From positions 1 to 37,270 of IMG/VR virus record IMGVR_UViG_3300044620_000180: a stretch of 37,270 nucleotides of DNA, one strand, 5' to 3'. Within the stretch, counting starts at the first letter, position 1; the number at the start of each line of letters is the position of its first letter. Under the pieces are notes generated by a model. That model did no database searches and was not told the origin of the DNA. It was given only the letters and a program-made list of their open reading frames with translations. Below, piece by piece: positions 3,858 through 32,741 of the stretch. The stretch comes from a virus. The position numbers were made by a program, and so were the translations under genes.

Positions 3858-5906
3858 ATGGACCAAAACGACTTTGATCAGCCAGACGAGGCCGATAAAG
3901 AGTTAGTTTCTTTCGTGACTGATCATTGTGATCGGTGGCGTACCTACCGAGATGTCAATTTCCTGCCGAACTGGGAAGAGTACGAACGTATCTTCCGTGG
4001 TGAGTGGGCAGTCGAAGACAAGACCCGCGAATCTGAACGCTCCCGCCTGGTCACGCCGATGACGCAGCAGGCGGTAGAGACGCGCCACGCCGAGATCATG
4101 GAGGCGATTTTTGGCTCGGGCGAGTACTTCGACATCGAAGACGACTTGAAGGACATCGACGGCAGCCCACTGGACGTGGAGATGCTAAAGCGCCAGTTGA
4201 TGGAAGACTTCAAGAAGGACAAGATCAGAAAATCTATCGATCACATCGAGTTGTTAGCTGAAATCTATGGCACCGGTATTGGTGAGATCGTCGTCAGCAT
4301 GGAGAAGGAATACATGCCGGCCACGCAACCGATTCCGGGGCAGGTGGGGCAGGCGGCGATTGGCGTGATCGAGAAGCCGCGGGTGTCGGTGAAGTTGGTG
4401 CCGGTAAACCCTAAGAACTTCTTATTTGATCCAAACGGCACGTCGGTCGACGACTGCATGGGTGTGGCGATTGAGAAGTACGTGTCGATCCACAAGGTGG
4501 TGCGCAACATCGAGCGCGGCATCTACCGGAAGGTCAACATCACCCCGACGTATGAAGATACTGATCTCGAGCCCACGCAAGAGGTCAGTCAGTATGAGGA
4601 CGAGAAGGTCAAGCTTCTGACCTACTACGGTTTGGTGCCTAAAGAGTACATCGCCAAGTTGAACGAAAGCGACGAGGAGATGGTCGATCTGTTCCCGGAA
4701 GATTCAGCGGCCGAGGACTACAGCGACATGGTCGAGGCGATCGTTGTGATCGCCAACGACGGGATGCTCTTGAAGGCTGAAGAGAATCCGTACATGATGA
4801 AGGATCGTCCGGTGCTGTCGTACCAGGACGATACGGTGCCGAATCGTCTACTAGGGCGGGGGACGGTTGAGAAGGCGTACAACATGCAGAAGGCGATTGA
4901 CGCAGAAGTGCGCTCGCATCTGGATGGACTGGCGCTGACATCGGCCCCGATGATGGCGATGGATGCGACGCGTCTGCCGCGTGGGGCGAAGTTTGAAGTG
5001 CGTCCGGGCAAGGCGATCCTGACGAACGGCAACCCGAACGAGATTCTGTTCCCGTTCAAGTTTGGCCAGACGTCGAACGACAACTTGGCCACCGCCCAGC
5101 GGTTTGAGACGATGCTGTTGCAGGCAACCGGCACACTGGACTCACAGGGTATGGTCAGTCAAGTCTCGCGTGACGGCGGCAACGCCGGCATGTCGATGGC
5201 AGTTGCCTCGATCATTAAGAAGTACAAACGCACGCTGGTGAACTTCCAAGAAGACTTCTTGATGCCGTTCATCAAGAAGTCGGCGTTTAGGTACATGCAG
5301 TTCGACCCCGAGCGGTATCCGTCGGTGGATATGAACTTCATCCCGACTGCGACACTGGGCATCATTGCACGTGAGTACGAGCAGGCGCAGTTCATCGCGC
5401 TGTTGCAAACCTTGGGGCCAGACACACCGGTGCTGCCATTGATTCTGAAGGGGATCGTTGCCAACAGCTCACTGTCGAACCGCATGGAGCTGATGGAGTC
5501 GCTGACACAGATGGCGCAGCCGAACCCAGAACAGCAGGCGATGGCGCAAATGCAGCAGCAGTTGGCGATGGAAGCAGCGCAAGCGCAGATCGCGGTCAAT
5601 CAGACGCAGGCCGAGCAGAACCGTGCAGAGGCCACGAAGACGCTGATCGAGGCACGATTGAAGCCTGTCGAGACAGAAGCGAAGATCATGGCGGCCAATA
5701 CGCAGAATTTGCCGAACAATGATGAGCTGGCGTCCAAAGAGTTCGACAAGCGGGTCAAGATCGCTGAATTGATGCTGAAAGAAGCCGACATCAAGAACAA
5801 GTCGAAGATCGTTGAGCTTCAGATGGCGGAAAAGCGCAACAAGATCAGCGGTATGGAAGAGGATTTCCTCGACGAACTGACTAAGGAGCTTGGCGGTGGA
5901 CGTTGA
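3858..5906 (+). CDS. Portal (head-tail connector) protein
   Basis: At 682 residues it is in the size range of P22-like portals. It forms the dodecameric DNA gate at the capsid vertex and the base for scaffold and adaptor. The N-terminus (DHCDRWRTYRDVNFLPNWEE) and a central stretch (NRLLGRGTVEKAYNMQKAID) look like the wing and stem of this family. The C-terminus (about 560-660) is a long Gln/Ala/Glu-rich coiled coil resembling the P22 barrel. An AGGGG site precedes the ATG. It lies after the HNH gene and overlaps the start of the first fibre gene by 11 nt. Assignment rests on length, character and position next to the terminase. Confidence 0.9.
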   Translation: MDQNDFDQPDEADKELVSFVTDHCDRWRTYRDVNFLPNWEEYERIFRGEWAVEDKTRESERSRLVTPMTQQAVETRHAEIMEAIFGSGEYFDIEDDLKDIDGSPLDVEMLKRQLMEDFKKDKIRKSIDHIELLAEIYGTGIGEIVVSMEKEYMPATQPIPGQVGQAAIGVIEKPRVSVKLVPVNPKNFLFDPNGTSVDDCMGVAIEKYVSIHKVVRNIERGIYRKVNITPTYEDTDLEPTQEVSQYEDEKVKLLTYYGLVPKEYIAKLNESDEEMVDLFPEDSAAEDYSDMVEAIVVIANDGMLLKAEENPYMMKDRPVLSYQDDTVPNRLLGRGTVEKAYNMQKAIDAEVRSHLDGLALTSAPMMAMDATRLPRGAKFEVRPGKAILTNGNPNEILFPFKFGQTSNDNLATAQRFETMLLQATGTLDSQGMVSQVSRDGGNAGMSMAVASIIKKYKRTLVNFQEDFLMPFIKKSAFRYMQFDPERYPSVDMNFIPTATLGIIAREYEQAQFIALLQTLGPDTPVLPLILKGIVANSSLSNRMELMESLTQMAQPNPEQQAMAQMQQQLAMEAAQAQIAVNQTQAEQNRAEATKTLIEARLKPVETEAKIMAANTQNLPNNDELASKEFDKRVKIAELMLKEADIKNKSKIVELQMAEKRNKISGMEEDFLDELTKELGGGR

Positions 5907-28526: not shown

Positions 28527-28783
28527 TCATCAATCTCCTGTTTATTAATTAGTAACGCGTAGCGTTGTTGTAGTTTGATTACTTCGTCGCGAAACAATGC
28601 TTGCAAAGGTGCTAACCGTCCGCCCTTGGGCCGCTTCAATTCGATGAACCACGTCTCGCCGTTCGGCAGGCACACGATCCGATCAGCAACCCCGCGCTGG
28701 TTGGGCGACTTGAATTTCCATGCGCGGCCGCCCAAGGTTTCCACCGTCCACACCAAATAATTTTCGACTTCAGATTCGCGCAT
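28484..28783 (-). CDS. VRR-NUC domain nuclease
   Basis: The product has 99 residues, a stand-alone PD-(D/E)XK nuclease. Glu4/Glu7 lie in the first helix; the core is GVADRIVCLPNGETWFIELK with Asp34 and the E-x-K of IELK (about 48-50), then PKGGRLAPLQ. Phage VRR-NUC proteins cut flaps or Holliday junctions. The first gene of block A: its ATG at 28783 has no ribosome site and coincides with the predicted transcription start, so the mRNA may be leaderless. Pairing with the SNF2 helicase suggests processing of branched DNA. Confidence 0.9.
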   Translation of the reverse strand: MRESEVENYLVWTVETLGGRAWKFKSPNQRGVADRIVCLPNGETWFIELKRPKGGRLAPLQALFRDEVIKLQQRYALLINKQEIDEWRLAYLTRCSTES

Positions 28784-28789
28784 GTCCGA

Positions 28790-28818
28790 AATATAAGGGC
28801 TAAAAAAGTATTTGACAA
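28790..28818 (-). promoter_or_regulatory. Leftward promoter of block A
   Basis: On the minus strand TTGTCA (28813-28818) and TATATT (28790-28795) are separated by 17 nt; each matches consensus at 5/6. The predicted start is 28783, the first base of the VRR-NUC ATG. The -35 box overlaps that of the rightward promoter by five bases. Confidence 0.75.
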
Positions 28819-28840
28819 GGATTATTTGCGGCGGTACAGT
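28812..28840 (+). promoter_or_regulatory. Rightward promoter of replication block B
   Basis: A perfect TTGACA (28812-28817), a 17-nt spacer and TACAGT (28835-28840, 4/6). The predicted start is near 28847, 22 nt before the GTG at 28869. GGTACAGT is repeated at the -10 (28833-28840) and over the start codon region (28863-28870). Confidence 0.75.
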
Positions 28841-28868
28841 CGAGGCTCAAACAGTAAACGGAGGTACA

Positions 28869-29990
28869 GTGAACCATTCCAACATCGTCGGCGGCAGCAC
28901 CGCCAAGCGCGTTATCAACTGCCCAGCGTCGGTGAAGCTGGTGCAACAGATGCCGCCGCGTCCGTCTTCTGAACACGCCGACCGTGGTACGCTCCTGCAC
29001 AATGTGATTGCTGAATTACTGGAGTTCGACAAGCCGCCCGCGCAGTGTCTGGGCGCCAAGTACAACGATCAGGTTCTCACGCAGGAGTTGCTCGATGAGA
29101 AAATTATTCCCGCTCTCGCGGCCCTCGATGTCATTGATCCGGGCAAGCGAATGGAGTACATGGTGGAGACGCGTGTGGGCTTTGGTGATTTTCTCCCTGG
29201 TGTCTTTGGCAGCACTGACTTACTTGGGCGTCAGGACTCACGCGCCATCGTTCTTGATTGGAAATTTGGCGATGGTGTACTTGTGGATGCTGTGGAAAAC
29301 GATCAGCTCATGTTTTACGCTGCCGCCGCCATGCGAACCGAAGCGTCGAAGTGGGTTTTCGAGGACGCCGATGAGATTGAACTCATCATCGTACAGCCAC
29401 CAGAAATCCGGCGCTGGACTACTACTAAGGCACGGATTCTTTCTTTTGAACAAGAACTCGCAAAAGCGGTAAAGCGTGCGCAGCAAGACGGCGCGCCGAT
29501 GCAGACGGGCGAGCATTGCCGCTGGTGCGCAGCGAAACCGATCTGCCCACAGATGAACGGCGCAGTCGACCGCGCAGTGCATCAGCAGATCGTCAATCTC
29601 GATAAAGAACAGCTCGCAGCCTACCTCGAGAAGGCCGATGTGTTGGAGGATTGGATTAAAGACCTTCGGGCGCTGGCGTTTCAAGTGTTAGAATCAGGCG
29701 CAGAAGTCCCAGGCTACAAGTTGGTTCCAAAACGCGGTACGCGGCAGTGGGCAAGTGAAGGCGCTGTCGAAGCGTGGGCGGATGTGAACGGAATCACCGA
29801 CGCGTATGAGACGAAATTAAAGTCGCCTGCGCAGATGGAAAAAGTGCTGAAGAAGCACGGCAAAGAATTACCCAGCGATCTCGTCATCACGGTATCGTCA
29901 GGTAGTACGTTGGCACCGGAGTCTGATCCGAGGCCAGCGGTGTTACAAATCGGGAAGCAGTTGACTGCGGCCCTTTCTAAACTCCAATAA
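28869..29990 (+). CDS. Cas4-like PD-(D/E)XK nuclease (DUF2800 type)
   Basis: The product has 373 residues from GTG at 28869, with GGAGG 4 nt upstream. A frame from TTG 28812 runs through the promoter and is rejected. NIVGGSTAKRVINCPASV is the typical start. GTLLHNVIAELLE, GVFGSTDLLGRQDSRAIVLD and WKFGDGVLVDAVENDQLMFY carry the metal-binding acids and the Lys of the nuclease. HCRWCAAKPICPQ is the C-terminal Cys cluster as in Cas4/AddB-like proteins. It probably acts as an exonuclease in phage recombination or replication. It starts the replication operon. Confidence 0.87.
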   Translation: MNHSNIVGGSTAKRVINCPASVKLVQQMPPRPSSEHADRGTLLHNVIAELLEFDKPPAQCLGAKYNDQVLTQELLDEKIIPALAALDVIDPGKRMEYMVETRVGFGDFLPGVFGSTDLLGRQDSRAIVLDWKFGDGVLVDAVENDQLMFYAAAAMRTEASKWVFEDADEIELIIVQPPEIRRWTTTKARILSFEQELAKAVKRAQQDGAPMQTGEHCRWCAAKPICPQMNGAVDRAVHQQIVNLDKEQLAAYLEKADVLEDWIKDLRALAFQVLESGAEVPGYKLVPKRGTRQWASEGAVEAWADVNGITDAYETKLKSPAQMEKVLKKHGKELPSDLVITVSSGSTLAPESDPRPAVLQIGKQLTAALSKLQ

Positions 29991-30001
29991 AGGAAACTAT
30001 C

Positions 30002-30622
30002 ATGGCCTTTGAATTAGCAAACCTCCCTCCTGTTTCTTCCCTGTCAGTTGCTCTGCGTCAGCTCGAGAAAGATGTCGGCCCTGCCGGCAGTGTCATTCTC
30101 AAGATGGACAAGCGCGGTGACTGGGTCTTCGGCGCAGACCAAACCGAAGTGGACGAAGGCACCCTCTGGGCTGTCAATCCGTTCTCGTTCGTCCACGGCT
30201 ATATCGCGTGGGGCGACGGTGAAGTGTTGGGCGAGAAGATGGTGTCGGTATCGCATCCGCTGCCAGAGATGGAATCTGCACCCGCAGGCGCCAAGCGTGG
30301 TTGGGAGACGCAGGTCGGCATGTCGTTGAAGTGCATCAGCGGACCAGATAACGGTCTTGAAGTGCGCTACAGTGTCACGTCAGTCGGCGGCAAGCGTGCC
30401 GTGCAAGGTTTGGCCGTTGCGATCGCGCAGCAAGTTGAGAACGATCAAAGCAAGCCAGTACCTGTCGTCACGCTAAAGCGCGATCACTACACGCACAAGA
30501 GCTACGGGAAAATCTATACGCCGGTGCTCGAAGTGCAAGAGTGGATGAGCATGGATGGTGGCAAGGCCGAAGGTGAAGAACCTAAAGCTGACGCTGCACC
30601 AGCACGTCGTCGTCGCGGTTAA
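30002..30622 (+). CDS. Probable ssDNA-binding protein
   Basis: The product has 206 residues. The centre is beta-rich (SVILKMDKRGDWVFGADQTE, NPFSFVHGYIAWGDGEVLGE), compatible with an OB-fold-like domain. The C-terminus is acidic then basic (EGEEPKADAAPARRRRG). It is encoded between the DUF2800-type nuclease and the DNA polymerase, where phages usually keep an ssDNA-binding protein (DUF2815 or similar). I do not see a certain family signature, so the role is inferred from context. An AAAGGAAACT ribosome region precedes the ATG. Confidence 0.7.
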   Translation: MAFELANLPPVSSLSVALRQLEKDVGPAGSVILKMDKRGDWVFGADQTEVDEGTLWAVNPFSFVHGYIAWGDGEVLGEKMVSVSHPLPEMESAPAGAKRGWETQVGMSLKCISGPDNGLEVRYSVTSVGGKRAVQGLAVAIAQQVENDQSKPVPVVTLKRDHYTHKSYGKIYTPVLEVQEWMSMDGGKAEGEEPKADAAPARRRRG

Positions 30623-30629
30623 GTTTTAC

Positions 30630-30787
30630 GGGCCGAAAGCGGATACTGAAGAGCGCCAGAACGCACCACTGGCACAGAGAAAGCTTCAGGCGCAGCGAGT
30701 AGGCCCACCCTTTCTATGGCTCTGGTCATTTTGATGTTAGGTACCCTTGGTCGGATCTGCCTGATAGCAGTCGAATGACCGGAGCCA
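30630..30787 (+). ncRNA. Structured RNA element / 5' leader of DNA polymerase
   Basis: This gene-free stretch folds into two domains. Domain 1 is three nested stems: GGGCC (30630-30634)/GGCCC (30702-30706), CTGAAG (30646-30651)/CTTCAG (30684-30689), GCCAG (30655-30659)/CTGGC (30669-30673). Domain 2 is a 13-bp stem (30718-30730 with 30774-30786, one G-U), extendable by one pair, enclosing 43 nt with weak inner hairpins such as CTGC/GCAG (30757-30770). The only Shine-Dalgarno-like GGAG (30781-30784) lies in the last stem, 13 nt before the polymerase ATG. It may regulate polymerase translation or be a separate RNA. A published DUF2800-associated RNA motif exists, but I cannot match its consensus from memory. 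Confidence 0.68.
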
Positions 30788-30797
30788 CCCCTACACT

Positions 30798-32741
30798 ATG
30801 AAAATTCTTTGGGTTGATTTCGAAACACGGTCGAAGTGCGACCTGTTCTCGCGTGGAGTCTATAACTATGCACAAGACGGCACCACGGATGTGCTATGCA
30901 TGTCCTACGCGTTTGATGACGATCCCGTTGTTACCTGGACTCCCGACATGCCGTTTCCCGATGCGGTACGCCAGCACACCGGGCAGATACGCGCTCACAA
31001 CGCAGCGTTCGAGCGACTCATCTTCTGGTACGTCTTACAGTGTGACTTTCAACTCGAGCAGTTCTACTGCACCGCTGCTCAAGCGCGTGCTAACTGCCTA
31101 CCGGGCAGCCTTGAAGATGTCGGACGCGCCATCAGCAGCAACATGCGCAAAGACCACCGAGGCAGTCAACTCATCCGAGCACTATCCATTCCACGTGCGG
31201 ATGGCACTTTCAACAGTGATCCATCTTTGATGGCCGAGATGATCGCGTACTGCGAGCAGGATGTCCGCTCCATGCGCGAGATCAGCAAGGCCATGCGCCA
31301 GCTCACCGATGAAGAGCTGCTCGACTACCACGTCAACGAGCGCATTAACGATCGTGGCGTCTTGCTCGACCTACCGCTCGCCCAGGCTGCGATTAAGTAC
31401 GCCGCGACTGAGATGGAAGAGATCGAGAACCTAGTACAAGATATAACCAACGGTGATATCTCTTCAGTGCGCAGCCCGCGCATGAAAGCGTGGGTGATGG
31501 AGCGCGTCGGCGAGCAGGCGCTGAAACTGATGGAGGTCTACAAAGATGGCGAAAAGAAGTACAGTATTGATAAGACGGTACGCGCCAACTTGCTCATCTT
31601 AGCCAAGGAGAATGCTGATGAAATTCCGGCCCATGTTGCGGACGTCATTCAATGCGCGGATGACCTCTGGGCGTCGTCGGTTGCGAAGTTCAGCCGCCTT
31701 GGCGAGCTGGCTGACGAAGACGATCATCGAGTACGAGGTGCATTTGTCTTCGCAGGCGGATCAGCTACTGGACGAGCTTCAAGCTACGGTGCCCAGGTCC
31801 ACAACTTCACCCGGAAGTGCGCAGCAGAGCCCGATGACGTTAGGCACGCTATGGTCCGTGGCCACAGCGTCGTCCCAAGATTTGGAGTTCGCGTTACGGA
31901 TGTTCTCAAGGGAATGCTCCGGCCCGCATTAATCCCGGCGCCTGGTAAACAGTTCGTTGTCGCCGACTGGTCGGCGGTCGAGGCCCGTGTGACTGCGTGG
32001 GCGTCCGCCGATTCGCAGGCCGAAGAGGTGTTGCAGGTCTTCCGTGACGGTCGCGACATCTATAAGCGAGAAGCGGCCGGTATTTACCGCGTACCAGAGG
32101 AGACGGTCGACAAGGACCAGCGCCAGATCGGCAAGGTGGCGATTCTGTCGTTAGGTTTCGCCGGGTCGATCGGCGCGTTCGCTGCGATGGGCCGCGCTTA
32201 TGGCGTGATGATGCCTGAGTCGGACGCACGCCGGATTGTGGACGCGTGGCGCCGTGCGAACTCATGGGCGGTGCGTTACTGGGCCAAGCTCGAGGACGCC
32301 TACACGCGTGCGCTACGCAACCCAGGGCGCGAGTTCTCAGCCGGGCGCGTGACGTACCTCTACGACGGCCAGCATCTCTGGTACGCGCTGCCTTCGGGTC
32401 GGATTCTCTGTTACCCCTTCGCTAAGTTCGAAGGCGACGAGATCACTTATATCAAGGCGGCGTGGAAACCAGCGGCCGACGCCAAAGAATGGCCGAGAGC
32501 GCGCTTGTGGAAGGGGTTGGCCTGTGAGAACATTACTCAGGCAATCGCACACGACTTGCTACGGCATTCTTTACGCCAATTAGATGACGTTGTGCTGCAT
32601 GTGCATGACGAGATCGTTCTGGAGACGGCAGACCCTGAAGCACCCAATACCCTAAAGCAAGTAATGTGTACGCCGCCTGCATGGGCGGCAGGGCTACCGC
32701 TGAACGCGGAAGTGGAAGTGATGAGCCGATATGGCAAATAA
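30798..32741 (+). CDS. Family A DNA polymerase with 3'-5' exonuclease
   Basis: The product has 647 residues. The exonuclease domain starts WVDFETRS (Asp7, Glu9), then HNAAFERL and YCEQDVRSM. Polymerase motif A is VVADWSAVEAR (Asp390), motif B RQIGKVAILSLGFAGSIGAF, motif C HVHDE (601-605, Asp604). There is no 5'-nuclease domain, as in T7-type enzymes. It replicates the phage genome. The ATG lacks a well-placed ribosome site; the nearest GGAG is 13 nt away and buried in a stem. A hairpin terminator lies after the stop. Confidence 0.95.
   Translation: MKILWVDFETRSKCDLFSRGVYNYAQDGTTDVLCMSYAFDDDPVVTWTPDMPFPDAVRQHTGQIRAHNAAFERLIFWYVLQCDFQLEQFYCTAAQARANCLPGSLEDVGRAISSNMRKDHRGSQLIRALSIPRADGTFNSDPSLMAEMIAYCEQDVRSMREISKAMRQLTDEELLDYHVNERINDRGVLLDLPLAQAAIKYAATEMEEIENLVQDITNGDISSVRSPRMKAWVMERVGEQALKLMEVYKDGEKKYSIDKTVRANLLILAKENADEIPAHVADVIQCADDLWASSVAKFSRLGELADEDDHRVRGAFVFAGGSATGRASSYGAQVHNFTRKCAAEPDDVRHAMVRGHSVVPRFGVRVTDVLKGMLRPALIPAPGKQFVVADWSAVEARVTAWASADSQAEEVLQVFRDGRDIYKREAAGIYRVPEETVDKDQRQIGKVAILSLGFAGSIGAFAAMGRAYGVMMPESDARRIVDAWRRANSWAVRYWAKLEDAYTRALRNPGREFSAGRVTYLYDGQHLWYALPSGRILCYPFAKFEGDEITYIKAAWKPAADAKEWPRARLWKGLACENITQAIAHDLLRHSLRQLDDVVLHVHDEIVLETADPEAPNTLKQVMCTPPAWAAGLPLNAEVEVMSRYGK

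Follow-up and report, generated by a model that had tools for sequence, protein, structure and literature searches.

Protective 3' hairpins that lack a U-tract and stand behind the more abundant gene are well established, both from malE-malF and from a survey in E. coli (PMC5927463). Near SSB genes of mobile DNA in Enterobacteriales, STAXI (RF01728) forms a pseudoknot present in two or three repeats, for which it has been asked whether the element acts as RNA or as DNA (PMC2864571). In phage T4, the operator of DNA polymerase gp43 is an RNA hairpin of 16-18 bases with a UAAC loop upstream of the polymerase gene, whereas the mRNA of gene 32 (SSB) carries a pseudoknot operator upstream of the gene and, near the stop codon, a site for RNase E (PMC3014915).

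Here we describe E1, a structured RNA found in a 37,270-nt stretch of viral DNA (IMG/VR record IMGVR_UViG_3300044620_000180, positions 1 to 37,270, hereafter called the window), together with a second element, E2, that follows it. Like the malE-malF hairpin, E1 is a stable hairpin without a U-tract that lies within an operon behind a gene whose product would be needed in excess, and by analogy it may protect the message upstream; it differs in having a conserved core with exchangeable modules and in recurring in unrelated phages. With STAXI it shares a position near SSB genes of mobile DNA and the question of RNA or DNA, but E1 is a single hairpin-type fold, and no covariance-model match in Rfam places it in that family. 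The gp43 operator resembles this locus in that an RNA hairpin precedes the gene of a phage DNA polymerase, whereas E2 has a 13-bp stem with a multi-part loop, both elements are tied to the gene upstream, and the window polymerase belongs to family A. Gene 32 offers a parallel in what would be post-transcriptional control of a phage SSB, although E1 lies downstream of its gene.

The preliminary description had proposed a comparison with the Rfam DUF2800 motif; the replication block of the window does contain a DUF2800 gene, but E1 lies two genes further on and neither element matches the motif. Indeed, no Rfam 15 family reached its gathering score anywhere in the window, the DUF2800 motif included, and none was found at E values up to 10 for positions 30590-30830. 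A literature search that covered few subscription papers yielded no description of E1, the Burkholderiales-1 motif (PMC2864571, no Rfam entry) lying outside the comparison. E1 is an RNA family absent from Rfam, for which a covariance model was made in this analysis. Unrelated phages in large numbers carry it, one per genome and coupled to SSB-type genes from more than one family, which suggests that their replication operons share a post-transcriptional solution. The exchange of its P2 modules prompts one to ask what selection acts on them.

Two structured elements behind an SSB-like gene

The genes of the locus run in the order DUF2800 protein, SSB-like protein, family A polymerase and primase/helicase-like protein, and E1 and E2 occupy the gap between the stop codon of the SSB-like gene (30620-30622) and the polymerase start at 30798. 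The features are as follows.

30002..30622, + strand: upstream gene for the SSB-like protein, 206 aa (ORF)
30630..30706, + strand: E1, conserved structured RNA of class A (covariation; match to model R1 at 62.4 bits, E 2.7e-14)
30630..30634, + strand: P1 5' arm GGGCC, pairing with GGCCC at 30702-30706 (5 bp)
30635..30640, + strand: GAA (loop-E-like 5' strand), A, and GC opening the short helix; GAAAGC is conserved in protein-homology loci
30641..30645, + strand: 5' strand of the class A internal loop, GGAUA, usually GGAUG (alignment A2; partly fixed by the scan pattern)
30646..30689, + strand: P2 and variable interior, here with inner hairpin P3; P2 covaries and the interior is swapped between phages
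30690..30701, + strand: core 3' strand GCGCAGCGAGUA, with AGUA at the end facing GAA (alignment A2; protein-homology loci)
30707..30710, + strand: ACCC tail; mostly ACC or CACC after P1 in relatives (alignments A1 and A2)
30718..30786, + strand: E2, a 13-bp stem plus an inner hairpin with conserved loop CCUUGGUCGG at 30745-30754 (covariation)
30798..32741, + strand: family A DNA polymerase gene, the downstream neighbour (PF00476, E 2.2e-19)

E1 starts 7 nt past the stop codon of the SSB-like gene. The 206-aa product has no Pfam match and matches PHROG 9528, which is labelled nucleotidyltransferase; its AlphaFold model has a pLDDT of 71.7, and the PDB fold matches are mostly to SSBs, none of them significant. 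From these we infer that the protein is an SSB.

From P1, E1 continues into a loop-E-like internal loop (GAA/AGUA) and a short helix, followed by an internal loop that is conserved and by the variable P2. The three nested perfect stems of 5, 6 and 5 bp reported earlier, and the 13-bp stem behind them, are all present and agree with the predicted fold: besides P1, these are P2 (CTGAAG 30646-30651 with CTTCAG 30684-30689, 6 bp), P3 (GCCAG 30655-30659 with CTGGC 30669-30673, 5 bp) and the E2 stem (GGCTCTGGTCATT 30718-30730 with AATGACCGGAGCC 30774-30786, including one G-U pair and enclosing 43 nt). The minimum-energy fold of 30623-30800 (-63.7 kcal/mol) contains every one of them. Shuffled versions averaged -51.2 kcal/mol (sd 4.4; z -2.85), and 3 of 200 were equally stable; folding energy alone is therefore moderately unusual, and it is compensatory change that settles the reality of the structure.

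A test for covarying pairs among relatives had been proposed, and such pairs were found in both elements, as judged by shuffle and slide controls rather than by a phylogenetic test such as R-scape. Across 58 relatives, 86.3% of E1 cells are paired (69.1% when shuffled), changes on both sides occur in 10 of 13 pairs, double-change cells number 121 against 49 in shuffles, and the covariation score is 0.385 against 0.121 for shuffled and 0.03-0.12 for slid controls. All five P1 pairs show double changes, with variants such as GGGG/CCCC, GGGCC/GGCCC, GAGCC/GGCUC and GUCGG/CCGAC, among others. The two pairs beside the loop-E-like motif are invariant in the 58-sequence alignment and vary between classes (G-C, G-U or A-U at one, C-G or U-A at the other), and L057 and L060 have one extra matched pair next to the motif. 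A shifted register for this 2-bp helix was dropped because the first register is extended in classes B to D. The GAA/AGUA pattern between two helices is present in protein-homology loci, in a screen that itself required GAA and AGUA, and the G of the loop-E-like motif is replaced by C or A in some copies. For E2, 97.9% is paired, with double changes at 9 of 20 pairs and 47 such cells against 14 in shuffles. With near certainty, E1 and E2 are real, evolutionarily conserved RNA structures.

Of 51 contigs that carry the E2 loop, 50 have E1 immediately 5' of it, the remaining one being cut at the contig end. As described earlier, a GGAG (30781-30784) sits inside the 3' arm of the E2 stem, 13 nt before the polymerase ATG; in relatives it becomes GGGG, mostly with a matching change on the partner strand, which indicates that pairing is conserved rather than a Shine-Dalgarno sequence. 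An ATG in the E2 5' arm opens a 20-codon frame, MALVILMLGTLGRICLIAVE (window 30717-30779), which is probably no gene since a stop follows after 5 codons in the other E2 group. Upstream of E1 in L095 and L120 stand class B elements whose interiors carry CUUUGGUCAGUUC or CUUUGGUCGGUUC; as these are close to the conserved E2 loop CCUUGGUCGGUUC, modules may be common to different element types.

Distribution, position and exchange of the P2 module

A protein search with the window polymerase gave 80 viral loci, and in most of those that reach the SSB-like gene, E1 lies directly behind it. Beyond these, the core scan pattern AAAGCGGATN{20,50}GCAGCGAGTA matched at least 120 viral contigs, whose gene contexts differ widely. 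The pattern fixes 19 core bases and leaves P1, P2 and the flanks free, so that the invariance of the core in L082-L201 holds by construction; independently of the scan, most class A copies among protein-homology loci retain the core. The covariance model matched 49 of 49 viral records, with one strong copy in 46, a weaker match in one (E 7e-6) and marginal matches in two (about 0.001); the marginal match behind L139 is probably due to chance. One strong copy per record speaks against a dispersed repeat. Tandem copies of other classes do occur, with four elements in L095 and class C plus class A in L271 and L277.

Convincing matches in bacterial genomes are mainly from Burkholderiales (Limnohabitans, Pelomonas, Comamonas, a Burkholderiaceae strain and a beta-proteobacterial MAG), with one in a MAG labelled Armatimonadetes; several others fall within coding DNA and are plainly chance. 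Only 2 of 399 Burkholderiales genomes carry a match, one of them the starting genome, so that a chromosomal bacterial RNA was rejected and E1 is mostly phage-borne. We tentatively consider Burkholderiales as hosts of E1 phages. By BLAST no cultured phage with E1 was found, the only GenBank record being MW202710.1, from spring water, in which E1 lies between genes annotated as single strand binding protein and NTP-PPase.

The position of E1 follows the gene upstream. E1 begins 4-8 nt after the upstream stop codon in 68 of 111 cases. In sense orientation, 67 of 112 distinct elements have an ORF of at least 60 aa whose end falls between -3 and 15 nt upstream, against 5 in antisense. The upstream genes are most often SSB-type and belong to several families: about two thirds of the 67 proteins appear SSB-type, judged by an acidic C-terminal tip, a PHROG match or the family to which they belong, a count that takes in the window family and a DWDDE-tail family (PHROG 27714, of unknown function), both of which we infer to be SSBs. 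The AlphaFold model of the DWDDE-tail protein is of low confidence (49.8), and PDB profile searches returned nothing useful. Downstream genes vary (an unknown-function family in 20 of 78, MazG-like pyrophosphatases, polymerases and others) and are mostly not polymerases. Because E1 occurs once per phage behind SSB-type genes of many unrelated phages, it is probably linked to the gene upstream and is probably not a polymerase switch. Small, Cys-rich, signal-peptide-like proteins with a CTTCCYG motif often adjoin E1, between the SSB-type gene and the next (L006, L094, L125, L133, L156, L178, L180, L194).

The slot behind the SSB gene was followed in the family of L126, with 80 loci found by protein homology, 79 of them informative and one truncated. 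A GC-rich hairpin stands behind the stop codon in 76 of the 79: class A in 23 and in tandem with class C in 2 more, class C-type in 37 (32 by script, 5 by eye), class D in 1, a plain GC hairpin in 12 and a shortened form in 1 (L221); L261, L262 and L265 have none. In L221 (1741-1760) the E1 interior is absent between AAAGC and GAGTA, with flanks like those of L220, a site unique among the viral contigs. A mobile cassette with frequent empty sites was rejected, as this one shortened site (on the same contig as L300) is the only one among all viral contigs; a deletion between AGCG repeats is the more likely origin.

The P2 module is plainly swapped wholesale between phages. It is at least 88% identical (mostly 100%) with 392 nt on either side unrelated in 18 pairs, and less than 60% identical with nearly the same upstream flank in 235 pairs, the pairs not being independent events; for example, L006 and L007, and likewise L026 and L032, differ by wholesale replacement of P2 between near-identical flanks. 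Candidate causes are recombination at the core, co-conversion with genes inserted nearby, and selection for difference.

Candidate functions

Tentatively, we favour E1 as an intercistronic 3' hairpin of the malE-malF type that protects the upstream mRNA. E1 would be transcribed within the mRNA and fold directly behind the SSB-type stop codon; once the polycistronic message is cut downstream, the hairpin would halt 3'-5' exonucleases, so that the SSB transcript stays stable and more plentiful than that of the genes behind it, and E2 might serve as a second barrier in the window lineage. Both the RNA protection and its effect on protein ratios are proposals. The main reason for preferring a barrier is that in the slot the GC-rich hairpin is constant and the interior variable. 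Furthermore, E1 folds stably between two genes, just past the stop codon of the first, with neither a U-tract nor a plus-strand terminator at positions 28700-31000 of the window; the terminator search was confined to this interval, and in the aligned relatives ACC follows P1. Against the barrier, the class A core is conserved although a plain hairpin would do the job; roughly one upstream gene in three is not recognisably an SSB; and a passive barrier leaves P2 swapping unexplained. Since the class A core exceeds the needs of a plain barrier, it may in addition be recognised by a host or phage factor.

Recognition could instead be the whole function, E1 being the site of a specific protein (SSB, a host RNA-binding protein or an RNase) that governs how the SSB message, or its neighbour, decays or is translated. 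The loop-E-like motif, the retention of the core in most class A protein-homology copies while P1 and P2 change, and the bacterial matches mainly in Burkholderiales, which would fit a host factor, make this possible; it is nevertheless doubtful, as SSBs of unrelated families would need to read one core, classes B to D have a different one, and plain hairpins substitute for it. We consider it unlikely that E1 is a new functional RNA class in which a fixed loop-E-like scaffold behind the SSB-type genes of unrelated phages presents interchangeable P2 modules. If so, the modules would act through a partner (a host factor, a defence system or a rival phage), which would explain why they are traded and diversified.

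An RNA acting in trans, separate or released from the mRNA and with target or partner specificity carried by the exchangeable P2, would account for the single strong copy per record and for P2 being identical between unrelated contexts yet different between near-identical ones. Even so, this is quite unlikely: the position is fixed to the stop codon, the window has no plus-strand promoter-like site immediately 5' of E1, and many short forms lack the variety of P2 modules.

That E1 might work as single-stranded DNA, or might be a signal for replication or recombination close to the replication genes, is a doubt of the kind also raised for STAXI (PMC2864571), and one that location in the replication module, one copy per phage and module exchange would all fit. 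We regard it as very unlikely, there being no clear skew switch at the E1 site. RNA is the better fit to the sense orientation, the stop-codon spacing, the loop-E-like motif and the plain UUCG hairpin that takes the place of E1 in L051. In E1 stems G-U pairs outnumber A-C (49 against 25), and E2 stems also hold many G-U pairs; the G-U excess speaks against the bottom strand, while a top-strand DNA hairpin is still compatible with it. A self-cleaving ribozyme cutting the mRNA behind the SSB gene is highly improbable, for although a conserved internal loop lies between two variable helices in diverse phage contexts, classes B to D have another core, plain hairpins can occupy the slot instead, and no Rfam ribozyme matches.

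Of the two guesses in the preliminary description, a separate phage RNA element came closer, and a gp43-like translational operator of the DNA polymerase is scarcely credible: in the window E2 does directly precede the start of the polymerase gene, with no free Shine-Dalgarno sequence visible there, but the GGAG 13 nt from the start is not conserved, neither adjacency to the polymerase start nor overlap with a ribosome-binding site was found as a property of the elements, E1 precedes many different genes, both elements stay with the SSB-like gene when an extra ORF separates them from the polymerase (at least 11 relatives: L002, L005, L010, L018, L021, L024, L035, L036, L038, L056 and L058), and other polymerase relatives have E1 without E2 (L034, L047, L052, L059), another hairpin (L051) or nothing, the SSB-like gene of L073 running directly into the polymerase.

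As a separate observation, the pre-polymerase gap of L060 (~3890-3995) and L075 (~975-1070) holds a different structured element, GGGGGC.GUUAAGCCAGCACUCGAGGAUG ... UUUUCUGGCUUUC ... GCCCCCG.
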